64,000 nucleotides of DNA from Opitutia bacterium (GTDB lineage: Bacteria; Verrucomicrobiota; Verrucomicrobiia; Opitutales; Opitutaceae), in the NCBI GenBank assembly GCA_016217545.1, contig JACRHT010000004.1, positions 186,001 to 250,000 on the forward strand, in the 5' to 3' direction. Positions 35,601-47,790 of this stretch are shown here, piece by piece. Both the position numbers and the translations under genes were made by a program. The notes under the pieces are model-generated. The model was not told where the DNA came from, did not search any database, and worked only from the letters and a program-made list of their open reading frames with translations. Each line of letters starts with the position of its first letter. Position 1 is the stretch's first letter.

Positions 35601-36397
35601 GCTTCATGGACATGCTCGCGGACGAAGCGCCGAAAAAGAAATCGTCCAAAGCTCTCAGCTCTCAGCCCTCCGCTCTCGGCTCGCCGGATTCCGCCACCGA
35701 CTTCACCTCGCAAGAGCGCCTCCAGTTCGAGAAGGAACTCCTCGGCTTCTACGTCTCCGGCCACCCGCTCAACGCCTACGCCGGCCTCGCCGAGGCGCTC
35801 AGCACGCACACCGAGGAGACCGTTCTCCTCGAAGGCGATCGCGTCGAGTTCCGCCTCGCCGGCCTGATGAGCGGCATCACCAAGCGCCTCTCGAAACGCG
35901 ATAACCGCCCGTGGGCCTTCTTCAACCTCGCGAGCCGCCGCGCGACGATCTCGGTCAACATGTATGCCGACGCCTACGAGACCTACGGCAAGATCCTCGC
36001 GGAAAATTTGCCCGTCGTCCTCCTCGGATCCGTGATGAAAGGTAACGACGGAGCGCGTCTGAACATCAAAGAGGTCTACCACCTCGACGCCTACGTCCCG
36101 AACAACATCCGCAAGGTCACGTGGCTCCTTAAGCCCGACCACCCGGGCGTCACCGATTTCCTGCCGAAACTCCGCAAAGCCATCGACGCCGCCAACGGCG
36201 ACACGAAGGTCGAGATCGCCTTCCTCTTCGAAGGTCGCGTCGCACCGATCGCGGAAACCTCGTTCGCCCTCAAGTGGCGCGTGACCGGCACCGCGTTCCA
36301 GAGCCTGCGCAGCCACCCCGCCGTCGTCGGCGCCCTGATCGAAGCCCGCGCTCCCGAGCTGAAGGAAGTCCGCCGCTGGGGCAAACGCAGCGGCTGA
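32645..36397 (+). CDS. dnaE: DNA polymerase III subunit alpha
   Basis: About 1250 aa replicative polymerase. The PHP domain starts FIHLHVHTDYSLLDG with TDHGNMYG. The catalytic core has GRGSGAGCLVAYVLGI and PDFDIDFCMRRRGEVIDY, the tandem HhH region is AAKIIEEREANGPFADFADF and an OB fold lies near the C-terminus. I prefer the GTG at 32645 (MAAADTNFIHLHVH), since upstream codons to ATG 32510 lie partly in a repeat and look non-native. Two in-frame family-A inserts sit between conserved blocks: 35226-35305 (LSALDSQLSA) and 35649-35680 (ALSSQPSAL), both in linker regions. The polymerase core is intact. Confidence 0.95.
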   Translation: MAAADTNFIHLHVHTDYSLLDGACRIDRLMGRAKALGMTALALTDHGNMYGAIEFFNAAKSNGIKPLIGCEIYLTETSALEKTGRSEDGKSYYHMGLLARNLQGYQNLLKLVSYAHLKGFYYKPRADMETLAKYSGGLIGFTGCLAAIVPQHLLHDRYEQARQACGRFVEIFGRENFFVEIQDHGIPEQRKIIPGLLKLGEEFGLKVICTNDVHYVNHEDAGPHDSLLCIQTGAKVAETDRMKFDGTQFYLKSRAEMEKIFGEVPESITNTQGVAEMCDVAIPFPKGSERYPKYPLPVEIRDQLTPGEYLEQLCHEGLKKRYNFAYDDVASRPAVAERLAKLTNLPAGQKPVAPDYNGLPLEEELVVRLAFELSIIRVTGFIDYFLVVWDFIHWAKEKAIPVGPGRGSGAGCLVAYVLGITNLDPIRFKLLFERFLNPERVSPPDFDIDFCMRRRGEVIDYVRQKYGNDCVANIITYGTLGAKMVVRDVSRVHDLPFAEADRLAKMIPDELNIELKAAIEKSAELRTEYEKNPVAKKILDQGLVLEGMVRNTGKHAAGIIITDKPLDEFVPLTLQEGDVTVQYDMNAVGKLGLLKMDFLGLKTLTVIADAVANVRRTANPTFDIETIPLDDPKTYVMLNAGKTVGVFQLESGGMQNACKQVGVTDINDINAICALYRPGPMQFIPDYARGKRDPSTVAYPHQLLEQSLKETYGIIVYQEQVMECAKIIAGYTLGGADMLRRAMGKKDAEAMAKERIKFVEGAKRVNNIGEAKANEIFDLLNKFANYGFNKSHSASYALVSYQTAYLKANYPVEFMAAVLTAELGNAEKVSHFIAEAEAMGIQVLGPDVNESRGDFTPVVKKAESSESRAQSKKDGSTLSALDSQLSAANGSGGAIRFGLAGIKGVGELAAAKIIEEREANGPFADFADFVRRVDGRAINKRVLEHLVKTGAFDYSHAPRKPLFDGIDAALAGAAAHARDKAAGQHSFMDMLADEAPKKKSSKALSSQPSALGSPDSATDFTSQERLQFEKELLGFYVSGHPLNAYAGLAEALSTHTEETVLLEGDRVEFRLAGLMSGITKRLSKRDNRPWAFFNLASRRATISVNMYADAYETYGKILAENLPVVLLGSVMKGNDGARLNIKEVYHLDAYVPNNIRKVTWLLKPDHPGVTDFLPKLRKAIDAANGDTKVEIAFLFEGRVAPIAETSFALKWRVTGTAFQSLRSHPAVVGALIEARAPELKEVRRWGKRSG
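35226..35305. repeat. In-frame palindromic element inside dnaE (family A, copy 2)
   Basis: The left arm AGCTGAGAGCTCAGAGTCTA (from 35228) and the inverted right arm ending CTCTCAGCTCTCAGCT flank a short unique centre. It is about 80 bp, like the element in valS, and is translated without breaking the frame. Confidence 0.85.
35649..35680. repeat. Single-arm family-A repeat inside dnaE
   Basis: AAGCTCTCAGCTCTCAGCCC begins at 35649 with no inverted partner nearby. It is translated as ALSSQPSAL in a linker before DFTSQERLQFEKEL. Confidence 0.75.
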
Positions 36398-36801
36398 TCC
36401 GGCAACGCTTCAAGGTCCCGCCGAAGACTTGGCGAAGGCCGCTGAGGCAAACGCCACCGCGTCCGCTGTCGCCCGCCAAAACCGTCGCGCACGCCGCCGC
36501 GTAGCGCGACTGACCTTCCCATTCCGCAGCCGCATCCCGCGTGCAACGAAACCTGCGCAACCCTTGTGAAGTTCACGGCGTTTCTTGCCGATCCAGAGGT
36601 CCCCTCTGGTCGCGCCCCGTTAAGTTCTGCCATCGTGAGACGATCCATTCAGCACCCGCTGATTTGGCCAACTCATCGGAATCGTCCAAGCGCCCCCCGA
36701 GTTTGAACGCGACCCGATGAGTCGGCTCGATCGGGAATAGCGCGCGGCGCGCGTGGATTTCACGCGGGAAAATTCTCCCACTCCAACTTCCTTCCCGCCC
36801 G
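36398..36801. other. 404-nt intergenic region before the sensor operon
   Basis: No gene is supported here. It contains a perfect 7-bp hairpin CCAGAGG/CCTCTGG (36593-36609, 3-nt loop) and must hold the promoter of the TolC-PhnD-kinase operon. I could not assign -35/-10 boxes with confidence. Confidence 0.5.
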
Positions 36802-38334
36802 ATGCCCACTTCCTCAGTCAATCGTTTCAGCCGACCACTTTCGTGTCTGGCGCTGCTCGCGCTGCTGATCCCCTTCCTCGCGGCCGCCGAGAACCCCGCC
36901 GCTCCTGCGCGCCAACTCACGCTCGAGCAATGTCTCGCCGAAGCCCAGCGCAACAATCATCGCGCTCCCGCCTCCCGCTTCGCCGTCGCCGCCGCCGAGG
37001 CGCAACACCGTCAGGCGCTGTCCGCCTATTGGCCGCAAGTGAACCTCTCGGGCGGCGTCCAACGCCTGGACGAGCCGCCGAATTTCGTCTTCCCCGCCGG
37101 CTACATGGGCGTGCCCGGCCAAAGCGTCACCGTCCCCGCGAGCACCGCGCTGATCACCGTTCCCGCCGGCGTGCTCGGACCGACCGCGGTGCAACTCCCC
37201 GTCGCCGTCCCCGCGCAAACCGTCGCGACCGCGCCGCAAATTTTCCCCATCCCCGCCCAGGACGTGCAACTCATGCAACGCGACAGCACCACCGCCTTGC
37301 TCGACGCGAAGTGGCTGCTCTTCGACGGCGGCATGCGCCGCGGCTTCACCGAGCAAACGCAGGCCGCCATCGCCGCCATGAAGGAGGAGGCGCGCCGCAC
37401 CGACCTCGAAGTCGCCGACACCGTCCACCGCTACTACTACGGCGCCATCCTCGCCCGCGCGCTCAGCCAGCTCGGCCGCGACACGCTCGTCCGCATGGAG
37501 ACGACGCTCAGCCTCACCGAGACGATGTTCCAAGGCGGCAGCACGCGCGTCACGAAAGCCGACTACCTCGACAACAAAATCATGGTCGAGTCCATCCGCG
37601 CGCTCGTCGCTTCACTCGAGAAAAACGAAGCCATGGCCCAAGCCGCGCTGGCCAACGCCATCGGTCTCTCTTGGCGCGACAACGTCGTCCCCACCGATCA
37701 GGAAATTCCACTCGTCCCGTTCAACGGCGACCTCGAGCAACTCGTCGGCACCGCCTACCGCTTCAGCCCCGACTGGAACCGCTATGAAGCCGGCGTCCGC
37801 GCCGCCGAGGGCGCCGTGCGCACCGCGCGCAGCGGCTACGCCCCGAAAATCGCGCTCACCGGCACCGTCCATCGTTGGTGGAACAGCGCCGACGGCGGCC
37901 TCTCCACCGATCGCAACCGCGACGGCTGGACGCTCGGCCTCGGTTTCGAGCTGCCCGTCTTCGACGGCATGCGCACCAAGGCCAAGGTCGCCGAAACCAA
38001 GGCGCGCCTCGAGCAGCTGCGCGAGCAAGGCTTCCTCCTCCGCGAGGGCATCGGCCTGCAGGTGAAAGACATCTTCCTCGGCCTCACCGCCGCGTCGAAG
38101 TCCTGCGCCGCCACCCAATCCGCCATGCAAGCCGCGGTGGAAAACCGCGATCTCAACACCCGCGCCTACCAACAAGAGCTCGTCGACACCGAGAAAGTCA
38201 TCCGCGCCCAGCTCATGGAAGCGCTCATGACCGCCCAGCACCTCAAGGCGCGCTACGATCTCGTCGCCCTGCAATCCAGCCTCTCGCTCGTGATCGGCAC
38301 CGAGGTGTTGCGACAAATCCAAGCCTCACCTTAG
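36802..38334 (+). CDS. TolC-family outer-membrane channel protein
   Basis: 510 aa. The signal peptide (about 1-29, LALLALLIPFLAAAE) is followed by two outer-membrane efflux domains with long coiled helices (LTLEQCLAEAQRNNHRAPAS; AKVAETKARLEQLREQGFLL). Residues of about 75-150 hold an unusual Pro/Val/Ala-rich loop (TVPASTALITVPAGVLGPTA). TolC proteins form the outer-membrane duct of efflux and type I export systems. No inner-membrane pump or adaptor is encoded nearby. It is first in an operon, 10 nt ahead of the PhnD-like genes, which suggests a role with that sensing system or simple co-control. Confidence 0.9.
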   Translation: MPTSSVNRFSRPLSCLALLALLIPFLAAAENPAAPARQLTLEQCLAEAQRNNHRAPASRFAVAAAEAQHRQALSAYWPQVNLSGGVQRLDEPPNFVFPAGYMGVPGQSVTVPASTALITVPAGVLGPTAVQLPVAVPAQTVATAPQIFPIPAQDVQLMQRDSTTALLDAKWLLFDGGMRRGFTEQTQAAIAAMKEEARRTDLEVADTVHRYYYGAILARALSQLGRDTLVRMETTLSLTETMFQGGSTRVTKADYLDNKIMVESIRALVASLEKNEAMAQAALANAIGLSWRDNVVPTDQEIPLVPFNGDLEQLVGTAYRFSPDWNRYEAGVRAAEGAVRTARSGYAPKIALTGTVHRWWNSADGGLSTDRNRDGWTLGLGFELPVFDGMRTKAKVAETKARLEQLREQGFLLREGIGLQVKDIFLGLTAASKSCAATQSAMQAAVENRDLNTRAYQQELVDTEKVIRAQLMEALMTAQHLKARYDLVALQSSLSLVIGTEVLRQIQASP

Positions 38335-38344
38335 CGCCCATGTC

Positions 38345-39343
38345 GTGACAATTTCCCGCGCCACCTTCCGCGACTCCCGCGCCGAAAGAACCCTCTTTCG
38401 GCGCTTCGCGTTGGGCGTGCTCGCGGGCCTCGCGCTCGCCCTCGTCGCCGCCGCCAAGCCGCCGGACCTGTTTCGCCTCGGCTTCTGCTCCTCCATGTTG
38501 GCCGGCGTGAACGACAACGATGCCCGCGCCTCCCTGCGCGCGCTGTCGTCCGTCGTGTCCCGCGAGCGCGGCATCAAGGCCGACCCCGAGCCCGTCCTGC
38601 TCAGCGGCGCCGACGCGCTGGCGGACGCTCTCGTCTCGGCCGAGGTCGATGCGGTCGCGACGACCGTCGACGAATACTGGGCCTCCGCCGGCCGCGTCCG
38701 GTTCGATCGCTTCCTCATGGGCACGCACAACGGCGACCCCGCCGAACGCTACGTCCTGCTCGTCCGGCGCGACACCGGCTTTGCCGAGCCGACCGCCTTG
38801 CGCGGCCACAGCCTCGCGCTTCACAGCGCGCCGCGAATGCGCCTCGGTTACTTGTGGCTCGAAGTCGTGCTCGCTCGCGCCGATGCCTCGCCGGTCACCG
38901 ATTTTTTCTCCCGTCTCGATCGGACGCCGAAACTTTCCAAGGCGGTGCTCGACGTGTTTTTCAAACGGATCGACGCCTGCCTCGTCACGCAACGGGCGTT
39001 CGCCGCCGTCGCGGAGATGAATCCGCAGGTCGGCAAGGAACTCGCGCCCATCGCGACCTCGCCGGATTTGGTGCCGAGCTTCTTCGGCTTCCGCTCCGGC
39101 ATGGACCCGGCGTTCCTCGAAAAAGTGGTCCGCGAGCTCGGCAGCGTGCACCACACTCCCGCCGGCAAGCAGGCGATCACGATCTTCCAAGTCGGCGACC
39201 TCGGCGAATTCGGCGCCGAGTCCCTCGCCCCCGCCCTCGCGCTGCTCGACGAGTATCGCGCCCGCCGGCCCGATGAAGCCGCGCGACTCATCGCGAGCCT
39301 GCGCACCAGCGGCGCCGGCCCGCTCGCGGAGGCCGTGCCATGA
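38345..39343 (+). CDS. PhnD-like periplasmic binding protein 1
   Basis: 332 aa from GTG 38345 (an ATG at 38340 hits a stop). A hydrophobic signal (about 19-37, RFALGVLAGLALALVAAA) is followed by a PhnD/phosphonate-type binding fold: GFCSSMLAGVNDNDARASLRA-type N-terminus, VDAVATTVDEYW, LVRRDTGF, and the family motif VFFKRIDACLVTQRAF followed by MNPQVGKEL. It is the first of four paralogues in a row. It ends with a 4-nt ATGA overlap with the next. Membership in the PhnD family is clear; the ligand is unknown, and no ABC permease or ATPase is encoded with it. Confidence 0.88.
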   Translation: MTISRATFRDSRAERTLFRRFALGVLAGLALALVAAAKPPDLFRLGFCSSMLAGVNDNDARASLRALSSVVSRERGIKADPEPVLLSGADALADALVSAEVDAVATTVDEYWASAGRVRFDRFLMGTHNGDPAERYVLLVRRDTGFAEPTALRGHSLALHSAPRMRLGYLWLEVVLARADASPVTDFFSRLDRTPKLSKAVLDVFFKRIDACLVTQRAFAAVAEMNPQVGKELAPIATSPDLVPSFFGFRSGMDPAFLEKVVRELGSVHHTPAGKQAITIFQVGDLGEFGAESLAPALALLDEYRARRPDEAARLIASLRTSGAGPLAEAVP

Positions 39344-40263
39344 GTCGCACGCGCCCGCTCCTTTTTCTTCTGCTGCTCGCCGCGGCCGCGCTGGCCCACG
39401 CCGCGCCGTCGCCCGACTCGGTCGCCCCTCTTCTCGTCCGCGGCGCCCTCCTCCGCTCCGGGCTTTCGCCACTGAATGAGAACGACGCCCGGGCCGCCAT
39501 CAACGCGCTCACCCAGAAAATCTGCGCCACGCTCGGCTACGCGGTCCAGACTCGCGTCGAGGTTTTCCCGACCCGCGCCGACCTGAAGGCGGCGCTCGAA
39601 GCCCAGCGCATCCAAGTCGTCCTCATCGGGCCGTGGGACCTCCTCGCCTTGCAAATGCGCAATCGCATCGACACCGGCTACACCACCGTCATCGGCGGCC
39701 ACACCTCCACGCGCTGGCTCCTGCTCGCGCGCGCGGAGCGCTCGTTCCACGGCCTCGCCGACCTGCGCGGCAAGAATGTGCTGGTCCTGCACAACCTCAC
39801 CTCGCTGCTCGGCACGGCGTGGACCGAGACGCGATTGCTCGAACTCCACGCCGCCCCGCCGCCCCAGTTTTTTTCCAACTACGCCGTGGTCGAAAAACCC
39901 TCCGCCGCCGTGCTGCCCGTGTTTTTCGGCAAGGCCGACGCCTGCATCGTCGACGAGGATTCCTTCGCCGTCCTGCGCAACCTGAACCCGCAAATCGGCC
40001 GCCACCTCGTCGCCATCGAGATCTCCGAACCGTTCCTCAACCCGGTCATCGCCCTGACGCGCGACGGCTGGGCGAGCGAGCGCCTGCGCACCGACGTGCT
40101 CTCCAAGTTCGCCACGCTCGGCGACGAGCCCGCCGGCCGCCAGCTGCTGACCCTTTTCAAATGCGACCGGCTCACCCCGATCCAACCCGGAGCCTTCGAC
40201 ACCGTCGAGGCACTGTTCCGCCGCAACCTCGAACTGCGCGCCAAGGAGTTCGTCCCGCAATGA
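39340..40263 (+). CDS. PhnD-like periplasmic binding protein 2
   Basis: 307 aa with a clean signal peptide (LLFLLLLAAAALAHAA). It shares the paralogue motifs LNENDARAAINAL, VVLIGPWDLLALQ, FHGLADLRGKNVLVLHN and VLPVFFGKADACIVDEDSF followed by LNPQIGRHL. Its start overlaps the previous stop and its stop overlaps the next start by 4 nt (ATGA), so translation is coupled. It has clearly diverged from its neighbours outside the motifs, which points to a different ligand or partner rather than simple gene dosage. Confidence 0.88.
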   Translation: MSRTRPLLFLLLLAAAALAHAAPSPDSVAPLLVRGALLRSGLSPLNENDARAAINALTQKICATLGYAVQTRVEVFPTRADLKAALEAQRIQVVLIGPWDLLALQMRNRIDTGYTTVIGGHTSTRWLLLARAERSFHGLADLRGKNVLVLHNLTSLLGTAWTETRLLELHAAPPPQFFSNYAVVEKPSAAVLPVFFGKADACIVDEDSFAVLRNLNPQIGRHLVAIEISEPFLNPVIALTRDGWASERLRTDVLSKFATLGDEPAGRQLLTLFKCDRLTPIQPGAFDTVEALFRRNLELRAKEFVPQ

Positions 40264-41168
40264 AACGCGCCCTCCCGCTTCTGGCCCTGCTCGCGCTTCT
40301 CGCCGTCCCCGCGCGCACGCAACCGCCCACCGGCGAGGTCCCCGACCTGCGCGCCCGCGTGGCCTACACCCGCACCATCCTGCGCACCACAAACGAGAAC
40401 GATTTCCGCACCGCGATGCGCGCCTACACGAAGGTCATCGCCGACAATTTCCACATCATCACCGTCCCCGACGAATTGATCTACGATACGAGCGCGCAAC
40501 TGGAGGACGCGCTGCGGCGCGGCACCATCGAGGTGGTCGCCGGCACCGCCCGCGAGGTTCTCGCCGTCGATCCCGCCCTCCTCGACACCCCGTATTTCGC
40601 TTCGCATCGGTCCGGCGCGGTCGGCAGCCACTACGTGATCGTCGTGCACGCGCAGAGCAACATTGCGCAACTCGCCGACCTGTCCGGCTGCCGCGTCGCT
40701 GTCTTCGACGGCCCCCAAGGCTGCCTGGCCCGCCCGTGGCTCGAGGTCGCCTGCGCGCAAGCCTCCCTGCCCGCGCTTCCGGCTTCCCTGCGCGAACTCC
40801 GCCTCGTCGCCAAGCCCTCCCAGGCCGTGCTGCCCGTCTTCTTCCGACAGATCGAGGCGTGCATCACCACGCGGGAAAGCCTCGCGGTCCTCGCCGAACT
40901 CAATCCGCAAATCTCCCGCCAGCTGCGCATCATCGCCACCTCGCCCCGCCTCGTTCCCGTCCTCACCGCCTTGCGCCACGGCATCGATCCGGCCCTGCAC
41001 GCCCGCGTGATCGAGGCGATCACCACCGTCGACTCGCTGCCGGCCGGGCGACAAGTGCTCACCCTTTTCCAAACCGAGGAAGTGCATCCCGTCGATGAGG
41101 ACACCCTCGCCGGCACCCGCCAACTCCTCGCCGACCACGCCCGACTCGCCGCCCGCGCCAAACCGTGA
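40260..41168 (+). CDS. PhnD-like periplasmic binding protein 3
   Basis: 302 aa. The signal peptide (about 1-20, LPLLALLALLAVPARTQ) is followed by the paralogue motifs TNENDFRTAMRAY, IEVVAGTAREVLAV, YVIVVHAQSNIAQLADLSG and VLPVFFRQIEACITTRESL followed by LNPQISRQL. It has more cysteines than the others (SGCRV, GCLARPW, VACAQ, EACIT). Both ends are 4-nt overlaps. ATG 40260 is fixed by the overlap and the signal peptide. Confidence 0.88.
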   Translation: MKRALPLLALLALLAVPARTQPPTGEVPDLRARVAYTRTILRTTNENDFRTAMRAYTKVIADNFHIITVPDELIYDTSAQLEDALRRGTIEVVAGTAREVLAVDPALLDTPYFASHRSGAVGSHYVIVVHAQSNIAQLADLSGCRVAVFDGPQGCLARPWLEVACAQASLPALPASLRELRLVAKPSQAVLPVFFRQIEACITTRESLAVLAELNPQISRQLRIIATSPRLVPVLTALRHGIDPALHARVIEAITTVDSLPAGRQVLTLFQTEEVHPVDEDTLAGTRQLLADHARLAARAKP

Positions 41169-42211
41169 ACTCCTTCCGCCCACCCTGTCGTCCCGCCGGC
41201 CCGTCCGGCCGCGCGCGCCGGACACGCTCCCCCGGCCGCCTCGGCGCGACGCTGCTCGCCGCGTGCGGGATCGCCTTCCTCTCGCCGCTTGTTCACGCCG
41301 CCTCCTACGCGCCGCTCGTTTCGCGCGGCGGCTACTCGCGCAAACTCGCCCCGCAAGTCGACGGCGCCGATCTCCGCAACACCCTCGCCGTCTACTCGCG
41401 ACTGATTTCCGACGCCAACAAGCTCGTCGCCGACCCCAGCCAGCCCGTCTACGACTCCGCCGCCGAGATGGCGCGCTCGCTCCAAGCCGGCGAAGTCGAC
41501 GTGATTGTCGGCCCGGCCGAGGAAGTCCTTTCGATTCCTCCGCCGTTGAGCGAACCGCCTGTTCTCGTCACGGCCCAACGCGGCCGAACCGGCGTCGAAT
41601 ACGTCCTGCTCGTGCACGTCGACGGGCCCGTCCACACGCTCGCCGATCTCCGCGGCGCCCGGCTCAACCTCGTCGACAGCCCCACCGGCAGTCTGGCTCC
41701 GGTCTGGCTCGACGACCTGCTCGCCAGCCGCGGCCTCCCCACCACCGAGCAGTGCAAGGAAGTCCGCCGCTACCCCAAACCCACGCTCGCCGCCCTGCCG
41801 GTTTTTTTCCGCCAAGCCGATGCCTGCGTGCTGCCGCGCGCCACGTTCGAGGTGCTGTGCGAGCTGAACCCCGCGCTCCACCGCTCCCTGCGCCCCATCG
41901 CGGAGTCGCCCAAGCTCTTTCCGCTGGTCGCCGTCTTCCGCAACGCCCTGCCGGTGAAACTGAAGTCATCCATCCTACAGGCCATCGCCACGCTGCCCGC
42001 CAACGAAACCGGCCGCCAGCTGCTCACGCTGCTCCAAGTCGACCGCGTCGAGCCCTGCGACGAGACCTCCATCGCCGCCACCCGCCAGCTGCTCGCGCGC
42101 CACGCCACGCGGCACCCCTCGGTCGGCGGCCCCGGCTTCACCCGCGCGCCTCGGGGCGCCCCGCCCGCCGCCATCGCCCGTGTTTCCCCTGTCAATCCAC
42201 TCGTTCCATGA
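41165..42211 (+). CDS. PhnD-like periplasmic binding protein 4 (most divergent)
   Basis: 348 aa from GTG 41165 (GTGA overlap). A long basic N-terminus precedes a signal segment (LGATLLAACGIAFLSPLVHA). The fold motifs are kept (VDVIVGPAEEVLSI, VLLVHVDGPVHTLADLRGA, LPVFFRQADACVLPRATF followed by LNPALHRSL), but the N-terminal NENDAR motif of its paralogues reads QVDGADLRNTL. It also has a Pro/Ala-rich tail of about 35 residues not seen in the others. It overlaps the kinase gene by 4 nt. It may bind a different ligand or act as a kinase adaptor. Confidence 0.85.
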   Translation: MNSFRPPCRPAGPSGRARRTRSPGRLGATLLAACGIAFLSPLVHAASYAPLVSRGGYSRKLAPQVDGADLRNTLAVYSRLISDANKLVADPSQPVYDSAAEMARSLQAGEVDVIVGPAEEVLSIPPPLSEPPVLVTAQRGRTGVEYVLLVHVDGPVHTLADLRGARLNLVDSPTGSLAPVWLDDLLASRGLPTTEQCKEVRRYPKPTLAALPVFFRQADACVLPRATFEVLCELNPALHRSLRPIAESPKLFPLVAVFRNALPVKLKSSILQAIATLPANETGRQLLTLLQVDRVEPCDETSIAATRQLLARHATRHPSVGGPGFTRAPRGAPPAAIARVSPVNPLVP

Positions 42212-43914
42212 GCAGTGACACTTCCCCCGGCCTCACCGTCTCGCGCCTCGGCATCACCCTGCGCACCGCTCTGCTCGCCTGGCTCATCGCCCTGATCACC
42301 CTCACGGTGTTCGTCCTGTCGGTCGTCCCGCGCCAGAAACAGACCTTCATCGAGAACCTCCGCTCGAAGGCCTACGGCTCCGCCGTTTCTCTCGGCGAAA
42401 TCGCCGCCACCGCCGTCGTGAACGAGGACTACAGCAGCGTCGTCGACTACTGCATGGAGATGCTCAAGCGCGATCCGGCCGTCGACTACATCGTCATCAC
42501 CCGCAACGACGGCTTCTCGCTCGTCCACGATCGCTCCTCCTGGGAGACCCGCAATCTCACCGGCCGCTGGGTGCCCGCCACCCGCGTCGCCTTCGGCGGC
42601 ATCGAAAAGACACCCGTGTTCGACCGCCGCGTTTACGCCTACTCGCACCCCTTCTCCTACTCCGGCATCGAGTGGGGCTGGATTCATGTCGGCCTGAAAC
42701 TCGACGCTTACGACCAGAGCATCGCCGAGCTCTACCGCCGCACCGCGCTCGTCGCCGCCTTCTGCCTCGTTTTCAGCCTCGTCGCCTCGTTCCTCTACGC
42801 GCGCCACATCGTCAGCCCCGTCCTGAAACTCCAGGGCGTCGTCCGTCGCGTCGCCTCCGGCGACCTCTCCGCCCGCGCCACCGTGGACCGCACCGACGAG
42901 ATCGGCGAACTCGCCCGGTCCGTCAACGCCATGACCGAGGCCATCCTCGTCCGCGATCGCACGCTGCAGGAAACCAATCTCCGCCTCGAGGAACGCACCC
43001 GCGAGCTCCGCGCCCAGAAGGAAGCCGCCGAACGCGCCCACGCCGAACTCGTCGAAACCCAGCGCCGCCTCTTCGAAGCCTCGCGGATGGCCGGCATGGC
43101 GCAGGTCGCCACCGGCATCCTCCACAACGTCGGCAACGTCCTCAACTCGGTCAACATCTCCACCAACATCCTGCGCGACGAACTCTCCTCCAACGCCCAC
43201 CTCAGCCTGCTCCAGCGCACCGCCGACCTGCTCCGCGACCAGGGCGACGCCGCCCCGCGCTTCATCGGCGAGGACTCGCGCGGCCGCCACATCCCGGAAC
43301 TCATCGTCGAAATCGGCCAGGGCGTCTCCCAATGCCGCGCCAACCTCGGCCGCGAGCTCGCCTCGCTCGCCGAGAACGTCGACCACATCAAGCAGATCGT
43401 CGCCGTCCAGCAAAGCTACGCCAAGGCCGGCGGCCTCCTCCAAACCTTCGACCCCACCGATTTGTTCAACGACGCCGTCCGCGTCGCCCACGCCTCGCTG
43501 CACCGCCACCACGTGCAGATCCACACCGACTACGCCACCGAACGCCCGTCGATCCAGACCGACCGCCACCTCGCCCTCCAAATCCTCGTCAACCTCGTCC
43601 AGAACGCCATCGCCGCTGTGAAAGTGCGCCAGCACGACGACCGCCACATCACCCTCCAGCTCCGCGTCGAAGGCCAGAAACTCCAGTTCGTCGTCGCCGA
43701 CAACGGCGTCGGCATCGCTCCCGAGGACCGGCAGCGCCTCTTCCAACACGGCTTCACCACGCGCAAGGACGGCCACGGCTTCGGCCTGCACTCCGGCGCG
43801 CTCGCCGCCACCAATCTCGGCGGCGCCCTCGGCGTCGCCAGCGACGGCCTCGATCGCGGCGCCATCTTCACCCTCGAACTGCCGGTCACCAACCCCGCGT
43901 TGCCCGTCGCATGA
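42208..43914 (+). CDS. Membrane sensor histidine kinase of the PhnD-like operon
   Basis: 568 aa. TM1 (about 18-40, TALLAWLIALITLTVFVLSV) is followed by a periplasmic domain of about 135 residues, TM2 (about 178-198), HAMP (about 198-250), a coiled coil and a HisKA-type domain of the HNxGN kind with His306 in GILHNVGNVLNSVNIS. The HATPase has Asn466 in LVNLVQNAIAAV, DNGVGI and GHGFGLHSGAL. It has no receiver or DNA-binding domain. It is translationally coupled to four PhnD-like proteins before it and a hybrid kinase after it. The AioX-AioS system, where a PhnD-like protein reports to a kinase, is the nearest described model. Confidence 0.9.
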   Translation: MSSDTSPGLTVSRLGITLRTALLAWLIALITLTVFVLSVVPRQKQTFIENLRSKAYGSAVSLGEIAATAVVNEDYSSVVDYCMEMLKRDPAVDYIVITRNDGFSLVHDRSSWETRNLTGRWVPATRVAFGGIEKTPVFDRRVYAYSHPFSYSGIEWGWIHVGLKLDAYDQSIAELYRRTALVAAFCLVFSLVASFLYARHIVSPVLKLQGVVRRVASGDLSARATVDRTDEIGELARSVNAMTEAILVRDRTLQETNLRLEERTRELRAQKEAAERAHAELVETQRRLFEASRMAGMAQVATGILHNVGNVLNSVNISTNILRDELSSNAHLSLLQRTADLLRDQGDAAPRFIGEDSRGRHIPELIVEIGQGVSQCRANLGRELASLAENVDHIKQIVAVQQSYAKAGGLLQTFDPTDLFNDAVRVAHASLHRHHVQIHTDYATERPSIQTDRHLALQILVNLVQNAIAAVKVRQHDDRHITLQLRVEGQKLQFVVADNGVGIAPEDRQRLFQHGFTTRKDGHGFGLHSGALAATNLGGALGVASDGLDRGAIFTLELPVTNPALPVA

Positions 43915-46025
43915 AATCTTCCGTCCCACCCGTCTATCGGGTCCTCATCGTCGACGACACTGCGTCGATCCACCAGGACTTCACCAAGGTGCTCGCCACT
44001 CCGGCGGCTCCGTCGCGCACTACTCTCGACGACCTCGCCGGCGCCGTGTTCGGCGACGCCCCGCCCACGCCCGCGAAGGGGCCCTATCCCACCTTCGAGC
44101 TGCACTCCGCCTTCCAAGGCGCCGAGGCGCTCCAACTCGTCCGCCGCGCCGTCGCCGAAGACCGTCCATACTCCCTCGCCTTCGTCGACATGCGCATGCC
44201 GCCCGGCTGGGACGGACTCGAGACCACCAGCCAGCTCTGGTCTGTCGATCCCGACATTCAGGTGGTCATCTGCACCGCCTACTCCGACCACAGCTGGGCC
44301 TCGATCAGCGAGCGCCTCGGTCGCTCCCACAATCTCCTCATCCTCAAGAAACCCTTCGACCACGTCGAAGCGCTCCAGCTCGCCCACGCCCTCACGCACA
44401 AGTGGGAACTCACCCGCGCCCAGCGCGCGCAGGTGGCTGAGCTCGATCGCATGGTCAACGAGCGCACCCACCAGCTCGCCACCGCGGAACAGCGCTTCGC
44501 CGAGGCCTTCAACGCCACACCCATTCCGCAGGCAATCGTGGCGCACGAACCCGCGTTCGAAGTCCTCGCCGTCAACGACGCCTTCCGGCGCGAGCTCCGG
44601 CTTTCCCTCGAAGACTGCGTCCACGCCACTCCCGAAACCTTCGGCCGCGGCCTCGATCCGGCCCGCTGGCGCAACCTCCTCGCTCGCGTCGTCGCCGGCG
44701 AGCACGTCGACGACTACGCTTTCCTCTACCACCCGCAGCCCGGCGTCGAACGCCACCTCCGCTGCTCCGCGCGCGCCACCACCATCGACGGCCGCCGCTG
44801 CTCCATCTGGCTCCTGCGCGACGTCACGCATCAACTCGAGACCGAGCAACAGCTCCGCCAGTCGCAGAAGCTCGAAGCCGTCGGCCAGCTCTCAGCCGGC
44901 GTCGCCCACGATTTCAACAACCTGCTCACCGTCATCCACGGCTACACCTCCGAACTTCTGGCCACCGACCCCAGCAAGGAAGTCCGGCGCATGCTCGAAC
45001 CCGTGCAAACGGCCGCCTCGCGCGCCGCCTCGCTCACCCGACAGCTCCTCGTCTTCAGCCGCAAACAGGTCACGCAACCCGAGCTCGTCAGCCCCAACGA
45101 CATCCTCGACGAACTCCGCCCGCTCCTCCGCCGCCTCATCGGCACCGACATCGATTTCCAATGGGACATCGCTCCGTCGCTCCCGCCCATCATGGCCGAC
45201 CCGGCCAGCATCGAGCAGATCGTCGTCAACCTCGTCGTGAACGCGCGCGACGCCATGCCCAACGGCGGACGCATCCACGTCTCCGCCTCCCGCGTCACCG
45301 TCGGCCCCGAGATGATCGCCCGCCAGATCGACGCGCGCCCCGGCGAATTCATCCAAGTCTCCATCGCCGACACCGGCACCGGCATCCCGCCGGAAATTCT
45401 CCCGCGCATCTTCGAGCCGTTCTTCACCACCAAGGATGCCGGCAAAGGCACCGGCCTCGGCCTTTCCACGGTCTACTCCATCATCCACCAACACGGCGGC
45501 TGGATCACCGTCCAAAGCCAGCGCGGAGCCGGCACCACGTTCACCTTCTTCCATCCCACCGTGGCGGTTCCCGCTCCCGACGTGCCGACCGAGCACGCGC
45601 CGGCCGCCGCAGCCCTTTCGTCCGCGCCGCGCTCCATCCGCCGCATCCTCGTGGCTGAGGACGACCCCGTGGTCCACGAACTCCTCTCCGCGGTCTTCGC
45701 TCGCAAAGGCATCGCCTGCGACATCGCCATGGACGGCGTCGCCGCCCTCGCCTACTGGCGCAGCCGGCCCGACGACTACGATCTCGTCGTCAGCGACATG
45801 GTCATGCCCAAAGGCGTCTCCGGCCTGCGTCTCATCCGCGAGATTCGCAACCAGCGCCCGAAACTCCCGGCCATTCTCATGTCCGGCTACTCCGCCGTCC
45901 TCGCCGATCCCACCGCACTCGACGACGTCCCGGGCGGCCCGCCCAAGCTGCTCCTCAAGCCGTTTTTCCCGAACGATCTCCTCTCCGCGATGAACGAGGT
46001 CCTCGCCGCCGCCCCGACGGACTGA
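43911..46025 (+). CDS. Cytoplasmic hybrid kinase, REC-PAS-HisKA-HATPase-REC
   Basis: 704 aa, no membrane segment. An N-terminal receiver ([14 protein letters not shown], Asp93 in [14 protein letters not shown]) has an insertion of about 30 residues after the first helix ([19 protein letters not shown]). A PAS-like domain (about 195-310) is followed by HisKA with His333 in [15 protein letters not shown], a HATPase ([33 protein letters not shown]) and a C-terminal receiver ([27 protein letters not shown]). It overlaps the membrane kinase gene by 4 nt. A relay from the membrane kinase to the first receiver is likely. No output domain is present, so a further protein must act. Confidence 0.92.
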
Positions 46026-46212
46026 TTCTCACGTCGACCGCCGACCGACGACGAAAAGTTTGACGCCCCTGCGCACGCCGCGCAGGTTCCGCGCGTGCGC
46101 TTCGGGCGCCGGCAGATCCGCGCAAAGGGCTGAGCCCACCTCTCACTACTCGGTTCACTGCACGTTTCCTCGTGCTGCTGCTTGCGGATCGCAGCGATAG
46201 CATGAAGGTCAC

Positions 46213-47790
46213 ATGATAACGCAGTTACCCGCGCGACCCGATCTCGCGCAGCTCAAGAAGCAGGCCAAGGACCTGCTCTCCGCCGCCCGCACCGTGCAAC
46301 CCGCCGCCCTCGCCCGCTTCCGCGCGCTCCCGGCGTTCGCCGCGCACACCAACGCGCAGCTCGCCGCGCTCCGCTTCGCCCTCCACGACGCCCAATCCGT
46401 CATCGCCCGCGAACACGGCTTCCCCTCCTGGACCGCCCTTCGCGAACGCGTCGAGGAACTCACCCTCGCCTCCGACCAAGCCGTCGCCCAATTCACCCGC
46501 GCCTCCGTCGAGCAACGCCTCGGCCGCGCCGAGCGCCTGCTCGCGCTCTACCCTGAACTCGTCGCGCGCGACTTCCACGCCGCACTCGTTTTCGGCGACA
46601 CCGCGAGCGTGCAACGCCACCTCGCCGCCCAGCCCGCGCTCGCCACCCGCCGCGGCGGCCCCCTCGACTGGGAACCGCTCCTCTACGTCGCCCACTCGCG
46701 CTGGGCCGCGAAAAACCCCGACGCCCTCACCGCCACCGCGCAACTCCTCCTCGCCCACGGCGCCGACGCCAACACGCACTCCTTCCACAACGGCAACCCA
46801 CACGAACCGCTCAGCGCCCTCTGGGCCGCGAGCTGCCACTCGCGCAATCTCGCGCTCACGCGCCTCCTCCTCGCGCACGGCGCCAAACCCGACGACGGCG
46901 AATCCGTCTACCACGCCGCCGAACACGGCGACCTCGAAATGCTCGACCTCCTCGCCGCGCACGGTGCCCAGTCCGACGGCGGCGCTGGCAACGCCCGTTG
47001 GACCAACACGCCGCTCTACTTCATCCTCGGCCACTACGCCGGCCTCGCCTTCGACGAGAAAGCCCGCCGCGGCGCCCGCTGGTTGCTCGAGCACGGCGCG
47101 AATCCGAATCGCGTCTGCTACCCGGACAAATCCGGCGAGACGCCGCTCCACGCCGCCGCACGCCACTGGGACGCCGCGATGATCGACCTGCTCCTCGCCC
47201 ACGGCGCCGATCTCCACGCTCGCCGCCGCGACGGCCGCACCGCCCTCACGCTCGCGCTGCTCCACGGTCGCACCGCCGCCGCCGACGCCCTCCGCGCCGC
47301 CGGCGCCGACGCGCAGCTGAGCGACGCCGAGCAATTCCTCGCCGCCTGCATGCGCGGCGACCGCGCGGAGGCCATTCGCCTGCGCCATCCCGCCGTCATC
47401 GCCGCCCACCCCAACCTCCTCGCCGAGGCCGGCCCCGCCGCCACCGAAGCCATGCTCGACGCCGGCTTCGACGTCGCCGCCACCGGCGGCATGGGCGAGA
47501 CCGCGCTCCACTGGGCCTGTTTCACCGGCAACCTCGCGAAGGCCAAGATTCTCATCGCCCGCGGCGCCCCGCTCGATCTCCGCGACCGCCAATACCGCTC
47601 GCTCCCGCTCGGCTGGTGCCACTACGCCTTCGTCAACCAGCCCGCGCCCGACGGCGACTACCTCGGCGTCGCCCGGGCGCTCCTCGAAGCCGGCGCCACG
47701 CCGCCGACCGACACGGAACTCGAAGACTGGATTGGCGGCGACGAAATCATCGGCGTGATCGCCGACTTCACGCGCCAGCACGGCGCCTGA
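46213..47790 (+). CDS. Ankyrin-repeat protein
   Basis: 525 aa, no signal peptide. The N-terminal part (about 1-85) is a helical domain often found before ankyrin repeats (LAQLKKQAKDLL, HGFPSWTALRERVEE). At least seven ankyrin-type units follow (AQLLLAHGADANTHSFHNG, GETPLHAAARHWDAAMIDLL, GETALHWACFTGNLAKAKIL). It probably binds another protein in the cytoplasm; no catalytic domain is visible. AAGG precedes ATG 46213. A 45-nt gap separates it from the RsmB-like gene, so they may be cotranscribed. Confidence 0.87.
   Translation: MITQLPARPDLAQLKKQAKDLLSAARTVQPAALARFRALPAFAAHTNAQLAALRFALHDAQSVIAREHGFPSWTALRERVEELTLASDQAVAQFTRASVEQRLGRAERLLALYPELVARDFHAALVFGDTASVQRHLAAQPALATRRGGPLDWEPLLYVAHSRWAAKNPDALTATAQLLLAHGADANTHSFHNGNPHEPLSALWAASCHSRNLALTRLLLAHGAKPDDGESVYHAAEHGDLEMLDLLAAHGAQSDGGAGNARWTNTPLYFILGHYAGLAFDEKARRGARWLLEHGANPNRVCYPDKSGETPLHAAARHWDAAMIDLLLAHGADLHARRRDGRTALTLALLHGRTAAADALRAAGADAQLSDAEQFLAACMRGDRAEAIRLRHPAVIAAHPNLLAEAGPAATEAMLDAGFDVAATGGMGETALHWACFTGNLAKAKILIARGAPLDLRDRQYRSLPLGWCHYAFVNQPAPDGDYLGVARALLEAGATPPTDTELEDWIGGDEIIGVIADFTRQHGA

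Follow-up and report, generated by a model that had tools for sequence, protein, structure and literature searches.

Positions 36802-46025 of the window, the 64,000-nucleotide stretch of Opitutia bacterium DNA analysed here, hold one run of seven genes: a TolC-family gene, four PF12974 genes (B1-B4), a membrane histidine kinase (HK) gene, and a REC-PAS-HK-REC gene. The genes and three short motifs within them are:

36802-38334, plus strand: TolC/OEP-family outer-membrane protein, cassette subfamily (Pfam OEP, 137 bits)
37534-37569, plus strand: TolC periplasmic tip 1 (GGSTRVTKADYL), with a two-residue insertion, a K-x-D-[YFW] motif and the tip Gly kept
38167-38190, plus strand: TolC periplasmic tip 2 (YQQELVDT), with the canonical tip Gly changed to Glu
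38345-39343, plus strand: B1, binding protein of predicted PhnD/ArrX fold, GTG start (PF12974, 57 bits)
39340-40263, plus strand: B2, binding protein of predicted PhnD/ArrX fold (PF12974, 74 bits)
40260-41168, plus strand: B3, binding protein of predicted PhnD/ArrX fold (PF12974, 61 bits)
41165-42211, plus strand: B4, binding protein of predicted PhnD/ArrX fold, GTG start (PF12974, 71 bits)
42208-43914, plus strand: HK, membrane histidine kinase (Pfam HAMP and HATPase_c)
42664-42687, plus strand: GIEWGWIH motif in the last strand of the predicted periplasmic Cache domain (W156, G157 and H160 invariant)
43911-46025, plus strand: soluble REC-PAS-HisKA-HATPase-REC hybrid kinase (Pfam)

A 10-nt gap separates the TolC gene from B1, and five 4-nt overlaps follow (ATGA at 39340, 40260, 42208, and 43911; GTGA at 41165). 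Gene calls and Pfam searches confirmed the gene content, the gap, and the overlaps described in the first-pass annotation, together with its observation that the run has no transporter gene: no permease, ATPase, or DNA-binding gene was found by Pfam among the seven. A scan of positions 36300-46300 detected no promoter-like site; of terminator-like sites, 6.2 were expected and one was detected, on the minus strand.

The periplasmic domain of the kinase recurs in loci of the form TolC-(binding protein)n-kinase, with n = 1-6, in relatives that belong to six phyla according to their record titles, and chance adjacency was rejected because of this recurrence. Across 28 loci with the kinase periplasmic domain, a cassette TolC is present in 23 and at least one binding protein in 27; locus L100 has the kinase alone. 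Fourteen of the 28 derive from a scan with GIEWGWIH among its patterns, and the 13 loci found by profile with no motif requirement (L060-L063, L095-L103) contain the TolC in 10 cases and a binding protein in 12. Eight of the 23 motif-scan loci (L022-L029), with short or weak matches, were set aside, and L021, on a contig of 3.4 kb and outside the 28-locus table, carries two binding proteins, one of them cut, plus the kinase. Four of the five loci without the TolC carry a cassette TolC elsewhere in the genome, and in three genomes (G1408, G1405, and G397) binding-protein genes directly follow this distant TolC; no cassette-type TolC was found in the genome G1369. Where TolC and kinase are both present, binding-protein genes fill the interval between them. 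Uncovered stretches there do not exceed 295 bases, which leaves no place for an adaptor or a pump gene in any of the 23 loci. Gene calling was rough in the GC-rich loci.

Among 297 Desulfobacterota genomes, the two with strong kinase matches contain all four binding-protein matches that score 285-328 bits, and the remaining binding-protein matches reach at most 90 bits; these counts are lower bounds, with only part of the candidates scored in many genomes. HK and TolC distances are correlated (r = 0.93 over 22 loci; none of 2000 permutations as high), a value to which shared descent contributes. No description of a TolC-binding-protein-kinase module was found in the literature searched, and the conserved module looks like an undescribed form of envelope-wide sensing of the surroundings.

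Variation is also found in the kinases and in the genes next to them. The HK comprises TM1, a predicted periplasmic single-Cache domain, TM2, HAMP, an HNVGN core, and HATPase. In its structure model (pLDDT 87.5, pTM 0.63), the periplasmic domain resembles the sensor domains of CitA, DcuS, and WalK (Z 13.6 over 117-134 residues), and Pfam sCache_3_2 gives only 17 bits against a cut-off of 28. W-G-x-[IL]-H is kept in all 28 aligned HK sequences, including that of the window. The HNxGN core, by which the first-pass annotation had characterized the kinase, falls outside the conserved module, the kinase core differing between lineages. A LapD-like domain was rejected, as the match to the LapD-type 4u64 is not significant (E 0.13) and the motif here is WGWIH, not GWxQ. 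Seven loci with distant Cache relatives (L104-L110; 36-45 bits) were taken as outside the family; WGTIRIGLSL is found in the three with fully read alignments, none of the seven has a cassette TolC, and weak PF12974-like matches lie near two. The plasmids and phages searched gave no match to the periplasmic part of the kinase. The hybrid kinase has candidate receiver Asp residues in FVDMRMP (44181-44201) and VSDMVMP (45789-45809), and its N-terminal REC region is shared with L012/L122 (50%) and with a GGDEF-EAL regulator in L007/L113 (38%).

The neighbouring outputs vary between loci, and receiver proteins with c-di-GMP domains lie beside the cassette, or beside its TolC-binding-protein part, in 10 of the 28. 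Of 151 flanking ORFs listed, 126 were used (the other 25, which had a previous scan or belonged to the longest, were omitted) and 49 of the 126 were scanned singly. Neither ABC_tran nor BPD_transp_1 is found in the 25 commonest families of the 126, a ranking that can miss families with only one or two members. Individual scans of 70 proteins, almost all encoded by neighbouring genes, showed no PhnC/PhnE-type gene; the ABC-related genes among them are ftsX (L117) and mlaD (L103). Among these commonest families and the 70 proteins, no adjoining phnC/phnE-type transporter was found in the relatives, in keeping with the transporter-free system first proposed. An ordinary ABC transporter fragment was rejected because no PhnC/PhnE-type gene was seen in the run, the 25 commonest flanking families, or the single scans. 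HlyD-family adaptors account for three of the 126 flanking ORFs; one of these was located in the single scans, in L099, on the strand of the kinase and ~2.3 kb after it.

All four binding proteins exceed the cut-off of PF12974 (Phosphonate-bd; 57-74 bits vs. 27), so that the relationship to PhnD suggested earlier holds. Against NCBIfam models they score 22-28 bits for TIGR01098 (cut-off 112), and one matches the PhnD equivalog TIGR03431 with 20 bits (cut-off 261). As these scores are below the cut-offs, B1-B4 are assigned to the PhnD fold but not to PhnD itself. Their mutual identity is 28%-36%, and a hydrophobic region at the N terminus of B1 is taken to be a signal peptide. From 72 open frames matching the binding-protein profile, 66 long matches were kept. 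The binding-protein tree combines old slots with recent tandem duplications: B1 groups with slot 1 of L111 (support 100/100), B2 falls in a clade with the last, kinase-proximal binding protein of L060, L061, L062, and L121 (100/97), and B3 and B4 are sisters (98/89). The AlphaFold2 model of B3 (pLDDT 91.8, pTM 0.86) has ArrX (6x8w) as its top Foldseek match (E 1.4e-17, TM 0.67/0.77), and ArrX is also the nearest solved structure by sequence (71 bits).

At the pocket positions, assigned via sequence alignment to a control from the same genome and not via structure, the canonical His is present in 2 of the 66 binding proteins, and the third Ser/Thr position is a Leu in 39. The three Ser/Thr positions read M/R/L in B1, S/L/L in B2, G/C/L in B3, and G/S/L in B4, a single Ser/Thr being retained in some binding proteins (one each in B2 and B4). 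The His position is occupied by Leu in B1 and by Pro in B2-B4, and the Asp position by Asp in B1, B2, and B4 and by Glu in B3. Phosphonate, phosphite, and arsenite had been named as candidate ligands, but of the pocket residues common to PhnD, AioX, and ArrX, the His and the majority of the Ser/Thr are replaced, and an oxyanion ligand is therefore unsupported. An oxyanion sensor was rejected on the basis of this mostly lost pocket, and, judging from these residues, the solutes of B1-B4 are probably not phosphate-like oxyanions.

The window TolC is similar to E. coli TolC and OprM, and matches a profile of the cassette-type TolCs with 711 bits, whereas the second-best protein of the same genome reaches 95 bits. 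Its tips were compared in an alignment of 23 cassette TolCs with eight of the genome's nine other OEP proteins; the ninth, C12_289, was omitted as it has no TolC-profile match, and an alignment shows Gly at its tip 2 as well. The tip-1 Gly is present in the window protein, in 22/23 cassette TolCs, and in 7/8 of the other TolC-family proteins; in the cassette TolCs it precedes the two-residue insertion, which is absent from the other TolCs of the genome. At tip 2, all eight other proteins have Gly, whereas the cassette TolCs have E (n = 17), D (n = 4), A (n = 1), or G (n = 1, L113). In MdsC, analyses of tip-glycine mutants supported tip-to-tip docking of the adaptor (passages of PMC4069162), and a search of the review PMC8277102 for tip motifs yielded no passage. 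A longer extracellular loop 1 in the cassette TolCs was not retained as a distinguishing feature, being only suggestive given the overlapping ranges (67-119 residues between anchors in the 22 cassette TolCs that are complete in this region, i.e. all but the truncated L063, vs. 37-84 in the eight others). The window TolC belongs to a special subfamily and is among the core components of the module. The subfamily and core status of the TolC and the c-di-GMP outputs in many relatives were absent from the first-pass annotation.

With moderate confidence, we interpret the run as a TolC-linked, multi-input binding-protein/kinase sensor, i.e. a transporter-free sensory module spanning the envelope. 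A dedicated TolC-family channel would partner with dedicated periplasmic binding proteins (four here) and not with an ordinary efflux adaptor, and would admit or sample solutes for them rather than export these. Each binding protein may recognize its own solute or a related one, probably of a kind other than phosphate-like oxyanions. One common histidine kinase would receive the loaded binding proteins at its small Cache domain, perhaps near the invariant WGWIH strand, and several inputs would converge there, although the Cache domain could also bind a ligand itself. The kinase would then drive a co-encoded receiver protein with an exchangeable output, which is the hybrid kinase here and may be a c-di-GMP enzyme in many relatives.

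This sensor interpretation is suggested by the TolC and binding-protein genes around the kinase domain, the absence of any space between TolC and kinase where an adaptor or a pump could be encoded, the joint occurrence of TolC and binding proteins elsewhere in three genomes, and the confinement of strong binding-protein matches to two kinase-bearing Desulfobacterota genomes. The correlated HK and TolC distances, partly due to shared descent, also agree with it, as do the tip-2 change in light of the MdsC glycines, the altered pocket residues, the c-di-GMP receivers, and the old slots and recent duplications in the binding-protein tree. It is weakened by the single Ser/Thr kept in some binding proteins, by G1369 and L100, and by the half of the loci that come from a motif-using scan, and the retained tip-1 Gly, the tip-2 Gly of L113, and the flanking HlyD genes indicate that an adaptor could still dock. 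Of the sensing system originally proposed, the binding-protein/kinase module has stood, as it is conserved and its binding-protein subfamily co-occurs with the kinase, but the oxyanion inputs have not. A further-reaching reading, in which the TolC with its changed tips docks the binding proteins and admits solutes or reports on the outside, forming a parallel-input relay from the outer membrane to the kinase, is put forward tentatively, as we consider it rather doubtful.

Other explanations would assign the components to separate tasks. One TolC commonly serves several pumps, and the TolC here might be an ordinary exit duct whose adaptor and pump genes lie elsewhere, with the exported compound sensed by the binding proteins and kinase, which would regulate it. 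The Pfam OEP match, the similarity to E. coli TolC and OprM, the tip-1 Gly in 22/23, and the HlyD-family genes, including that near the cassette in L099, are consistent with such a duct; it is nevertheless unlikely, as the tip-2 Gly is missing in 22/23, the stretch between TolC and kinase leaves no space for an adaptor or pump gene in 23/23 loci, and TolC and binding proteins remain together when the kinase is elsewhere.

Alternatively, the binding proteins could be a trans-periplasmic shuttle that ferries a hydrophobic compound between TolC and the inner membrane, similar to BstB, with the kinase only regulating the operon. The structure 7t1m, titled a bacterial sterol transporter and presumably BstB, has the same fold and a VNxxDA stretch in common with the family profile. 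BstB binds sterols in M. capsulatus (passages of PMC10942540), and the polar pocket residues are mostly lost in the binding proteins. Yet the cassette lacks an inner-membrane transporter, the kinase is the regular partner, and a soluble shuttle would leave up to six paralogues beside one kinase unexplained, which makes this option distinctly improbable. PF12974 proteins are classically components of ABC transporters, and Cache domains often bind ligands directly, so the binding proteins might serve an ABC transporter encoded elsewhere while the kinase senses independently. Adjacency alone is weak evidence (abstract of PMC11113362), which favours this separation. Against it, permease and ATPase families are outside the 25 commonest of the 126 flanking ORFs, strong binding proteins occur only in kinase-bearing genomes of the 297-genome sample, and the transport-type pocket is mostly gone, which makes this reading distinctly improbable as well.

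TolC proteins have been treated as exit ducts. The conserved subfamily described here would give TolC a sensory role, given its association with binding proteins and a kinase, its loss of one of the residues for adaptor docking, and an operon that lacks a pump. The sensor would also offer a test case for one kinase integrating several periplasmic binding proteins whose paralogues are encoded side by side, and the c-di-GMP outputs in relatives suggest that the inputs control attachment or motility. If the relay reading were true, the module would be an envelope-spanning receptor of a new class and would contain, to our knowledge, the first TolC with a signalling job.

In NspS-MbaA and YfiBNR, a periplasmic protein (in YfiBNR together with an outer-membrane partner) likewise controls an inner-membrane c-di-GMP enzyme, but we know of no TolC, PhnD-fold set, or histidine kinase core in these systems. 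LapD-LapG is comparable in its periplasmic domain, in which a Trp-bearing loop docks a periplasmic partner, and in its link to c-di-GMP (passages of PMC4359373), but differs in signalling inside-out to a protease. The abstract of PMC11113362 reports that in P. aeruginosa binding-protein genes lie near the AgtS and AruS kinase genes, two of them near agtS, and that no binding of the AgtS and AruS sensor domains to the neighbouring binding proteins was found; nearby binding-protein and kinase genes are thus not always linked, which also speaks against the sensor interpretation. It mentions no TolC, a difference from the module. Kinases with a built-in PhnD-like domain use it for sensing and not for uptake (passages of PMC5408782), although there the domain lies inside the kinase, separate paralogues are absent, and the regulators act on reductase promoters. 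Also close to the module are the three-component systems of AioXSR, ArrX, and ArxX, in which a membrane kinase and a response regulator accompany a PhnD-fold binding protein. The AioX/ArrX-type pocket (Tyr, Cys, Tyr, Ser, Ser, His, Asp; passages of PMC5908839) is largely lost in the binding proteins of the module, and the described clusters contain one binding protein and no TolC and regulate arsenic enzymes.

The seven-gene run that the first-pass annotation placed at 36802-46025 of the window was borne out: a TolC-family gene is followed, after a 10-nt gap, by four genes for PhnD-fold binding proteins (B1-B4, in gene order), a membrane histidine kinase (HK) with a periplasmic Cache domain, and a REC-PAS-HK-REC hybrid kinase, each confirmed by Pfam, with 4-nt overlaps at 39340, 40260, 41165, 42208, and 43911. 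B1-B4 are PF12974 members, yet fall well short of the cut-offs that NCBIfam sets for its transporter-type models, and their mutual identity is only 28-36%. Elsewhere in the genome, a different contig carries one further strong PF12974 gene (150 bits) and a weak match (21 bits). The gene upstream of the operon, read by eye from the sequence, is presumably dnaE. No final effector was seen in the window, and a signal from the hybrid kinase would have to exit via partners encoded elsewhere.

A kinase-based scan of genomes yielded 23 loci. By their record titles, the 15 best all come from metagenome-assembled genomes, assigned to Verrucomicrobia, Acidobacteria, Desulfobacteraceae and Desulfonatronum, Nitrospiraceae, Campylobacterales, and Methylomonas/Methylococcaceae; tblastn detected binding-protein genes in every one of them and a TolC gene in 12, the other three (L011, L012, L021) being contigs of 3.4-6.2 kb. 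Because this first scan had GIEWGWIH among its patterns, profiles of the periplasmic region were built with (A1) and without (A2) the HAMP domain, and further genomes were searched. Counting in each case the genome that served as search centre, strong full-length kinase matches were found in 5/387 genomes of the window's own phylum (A1, 273-358 bits; remaining A1 matches at most 74 bits and mostly in the HAMP part), and in 2/297, 1/398, and 1/199 genomes of the phyla of the Desulfobacteraceae (214 and 256 bits; six more at 36-45 bits), Methylococcaceae, and one of the Acidobacteria loci, respectively. At the order level, 4/199 genomes had strong matches for the Campylobacterales locus (119-223 bits) and 6/121 for the Methylomonas locus (180-234 bits; one more at 37 bits). 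The sample includes two further genomes of the window's genus, and neither gave a full-length match. The module is widespread but rare.

Across the combined table of 28 loci, TolC is present in 23 and at least one binding protein in 27 (one to six where any); for the 13 loci found by profile alone, the counts are 10 and 12. The genes usually run from TolC through the binding proteins to the kinase, with a binding protein ahead of TolC in L060, L096, and L118 and behind the kinase in L098 and L114. Where TolC and kinase occur together (23 loci), at most 295 consecutive bases between them lack binding-protein cover. For the five TolC-less loci, a profile search located a cassette-type TolC elsewhere in genomes G1408, G1405, G388, and G397 (584-696 bits; other TolCs at most 132 bits) and found none in G1369. 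This distant TolC directly precedes one binding protein in G1408, two in G1405, and three in G397; in G388 the next gene after it is the start of a kinase, and two binding proteins lie ~4 kb upstream. The contigs of the G388 and G397 loci are short, and these loci may be split. As the distant TolC is directly adjoined by binding proteins in three of these genomes, the TolC-binding-protein pair is a unit in itself. The binding-protein profile (1e-15) matched in 42 of 297 Desulfobacterota genomes, exceeding 285 bits in only two (four proteins), both with a strong kinase match; the best score elsewhere was 90 bits. Pairwise HK and TolC distances over 22 loci correlate with r = 0.93 (as high in 0/2000 permutations), a value to which common descent contributes. 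The module is conserved and real.

The model of kinase residues 1-278 (pLDDT 87.5, pTM 0.63) runs from a long TM1 helix through a Cache domain to TM2 and HAMP; its leading structural matches are the sensor domains of WalK, CitA, and DcuS and the chemoreceptor Tlp3. Across 28 kinase sequences, D74, W112, W156, G157, H160, and Y168 (window numbering) never vary, and a Cache strand follows the pattern W-G-x-[IL]-H throughout. The cytoplasmic core carries HNxGN in 10, HQWRQP in 11, HExRTP in five, and no motif in two that are cut by contig ends. Conservation tracks the periplasmic part of the kinase rather than its catalytic type. Solely by analogy with LapD, whose periplasmic domain docks its periplasmic partner through a Trp loop (PMC4359373, excerpt), the WGWIH strand is a candidate docking site.

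The best solved-structure matches of the cassette TolC profile are E. coli TolC-type chains. A study of MdsC (PMC4069162, excerpts) mutated Gly220 and Gly433, which lie in the two tip repeats; its authors count the tip glycines as part of an invariant V/T-G-V motif of TolC, OprM, and CusC, and regard the mutants as evidence for tip-to-tip adaptor docking. The tip 1 glycine is kept in 22/23 cassette TolCs and in 7/8 of the other OEP proteins of the window's genome, and is followed in the cassette TolCs by a two-residue insertion and K-x-D-[YFW] (K in 22/23, D and the aromatic residue in 23/23). The tip 2 position is E (17), D (4), A (1), or G (1) in the cassette TolCs, against G in 8/8 of the genome's other OEP proteins. 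We read these tips as a probable changed docking surface. In L099, an HlyD-family adaptor gene (L099:2997-4328) lies on the kinase's strand as the third gene after it, ~2.3 kb beyond; the 126 flanking ORFs compared in relatives include two more HlyD matches.

The binding-protein profile is nearest to ArrX among solved sequences (71 bits), followed by PtxB (41), a phosphate-binding protein (40), MCA1014 (38), AioX (30), and PhnD (27). The B3 model (pLDDT 91.8, pTM 0.86) likewise retrieved ArrX at the top in Foldseek, then XAC2383, PA3383, AioX, PtxB, and PhnD. Pockets were compared using AioX residues from PMC5908839 (excerpt) and a PhnD-like protein of the window's own genome, which reads PGSTTG and GSHAKAL. 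Aligned to this control, with some uncertainty near gaps, most cassette proteins lack the Ser/Thr loop (third position Leu in 39/66, second position Ser in 15/66), the pocket His is present in 2/66, and the Asp is mostly kept (47/66). Their family signature is F198 (66/66), N218 (66/66), P219 (64/66), and Q268 (63/66). The same fold can hold sterols, as BstB shows (PMC10942540, excerpt). The tree of the 66 proteins contains old slots, e.g. B2 with the kinase-proximal proteins of L060, L061, L062, and L121 (support 100/97) and three slots matching between L116 and L117, as well as local duplications (L060 1-3, L111 2-4, B3 with B4), a pattern that is compatible with, but no proof of, diversification of inputs.

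Genes for c-di-GMP receiver enzymes adjoin the cassette or its TolC-binding-protein part in 10/28 loci, as REC-PAS-HD-GYP (L096, L097, L099, L101, L102, L117, G1408) or REC-PAS-GGDEF-EAL (L112, L113, L115), and additional GGDEF genes lie near L097, L099, L102, L112, L116, and L117. REC-kinase proteins like the window's occur in L060, L063, L119, and L122; in the remaining loci no output gene was found beside the cassette, the contig ends, or the kinase has its own receiver. Two tandem chemoreceptor genes (L111:2212-5455) lie upstream of the cassette with six binding proteins. In L009, a further chemoreceptor gene lies upstream and a CheW-REC gene downstream, and a DisA-type diadenylate-cyclase-domain gene (L009:10942-12396; DACND-DACNH-DAC) comes after the kinase on the opposite strand. 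One Desulfobacterota genome has a gene for an MtrC/MtrF-like outer-membrane multihaem cytochrome (L095:4871-6595) upstream of its cassette TolC. In one genome of the window's family, the cassette has a phage-integrase-family gene upstream (L061:4447-5646), which would be consistent with a genomic island. A 706-aa open frame near a distant relative of the Cache kinase (L110:12222-14339) is PF12974-like in its C-terminal part and may encode a fused binding-protein receptor.

An excerpt of PMC11113362 cautions that a kinase gene and the binding-protein genes near it may have no link; a link is still favoured here because the arrangement is conserved across phyla. No description of such a module was found in the titles and abstract openings of the open-licence literature, and as far as this search reached it is undescribed. 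There is a chance that the role of TolC makes it a new kind of system. The module probably works like the AioX type of binding-protein/kinase system, with a dedicated TolC and several binding proteins in addition; in these proteins the oxyanion pocket has mostly been dropped.
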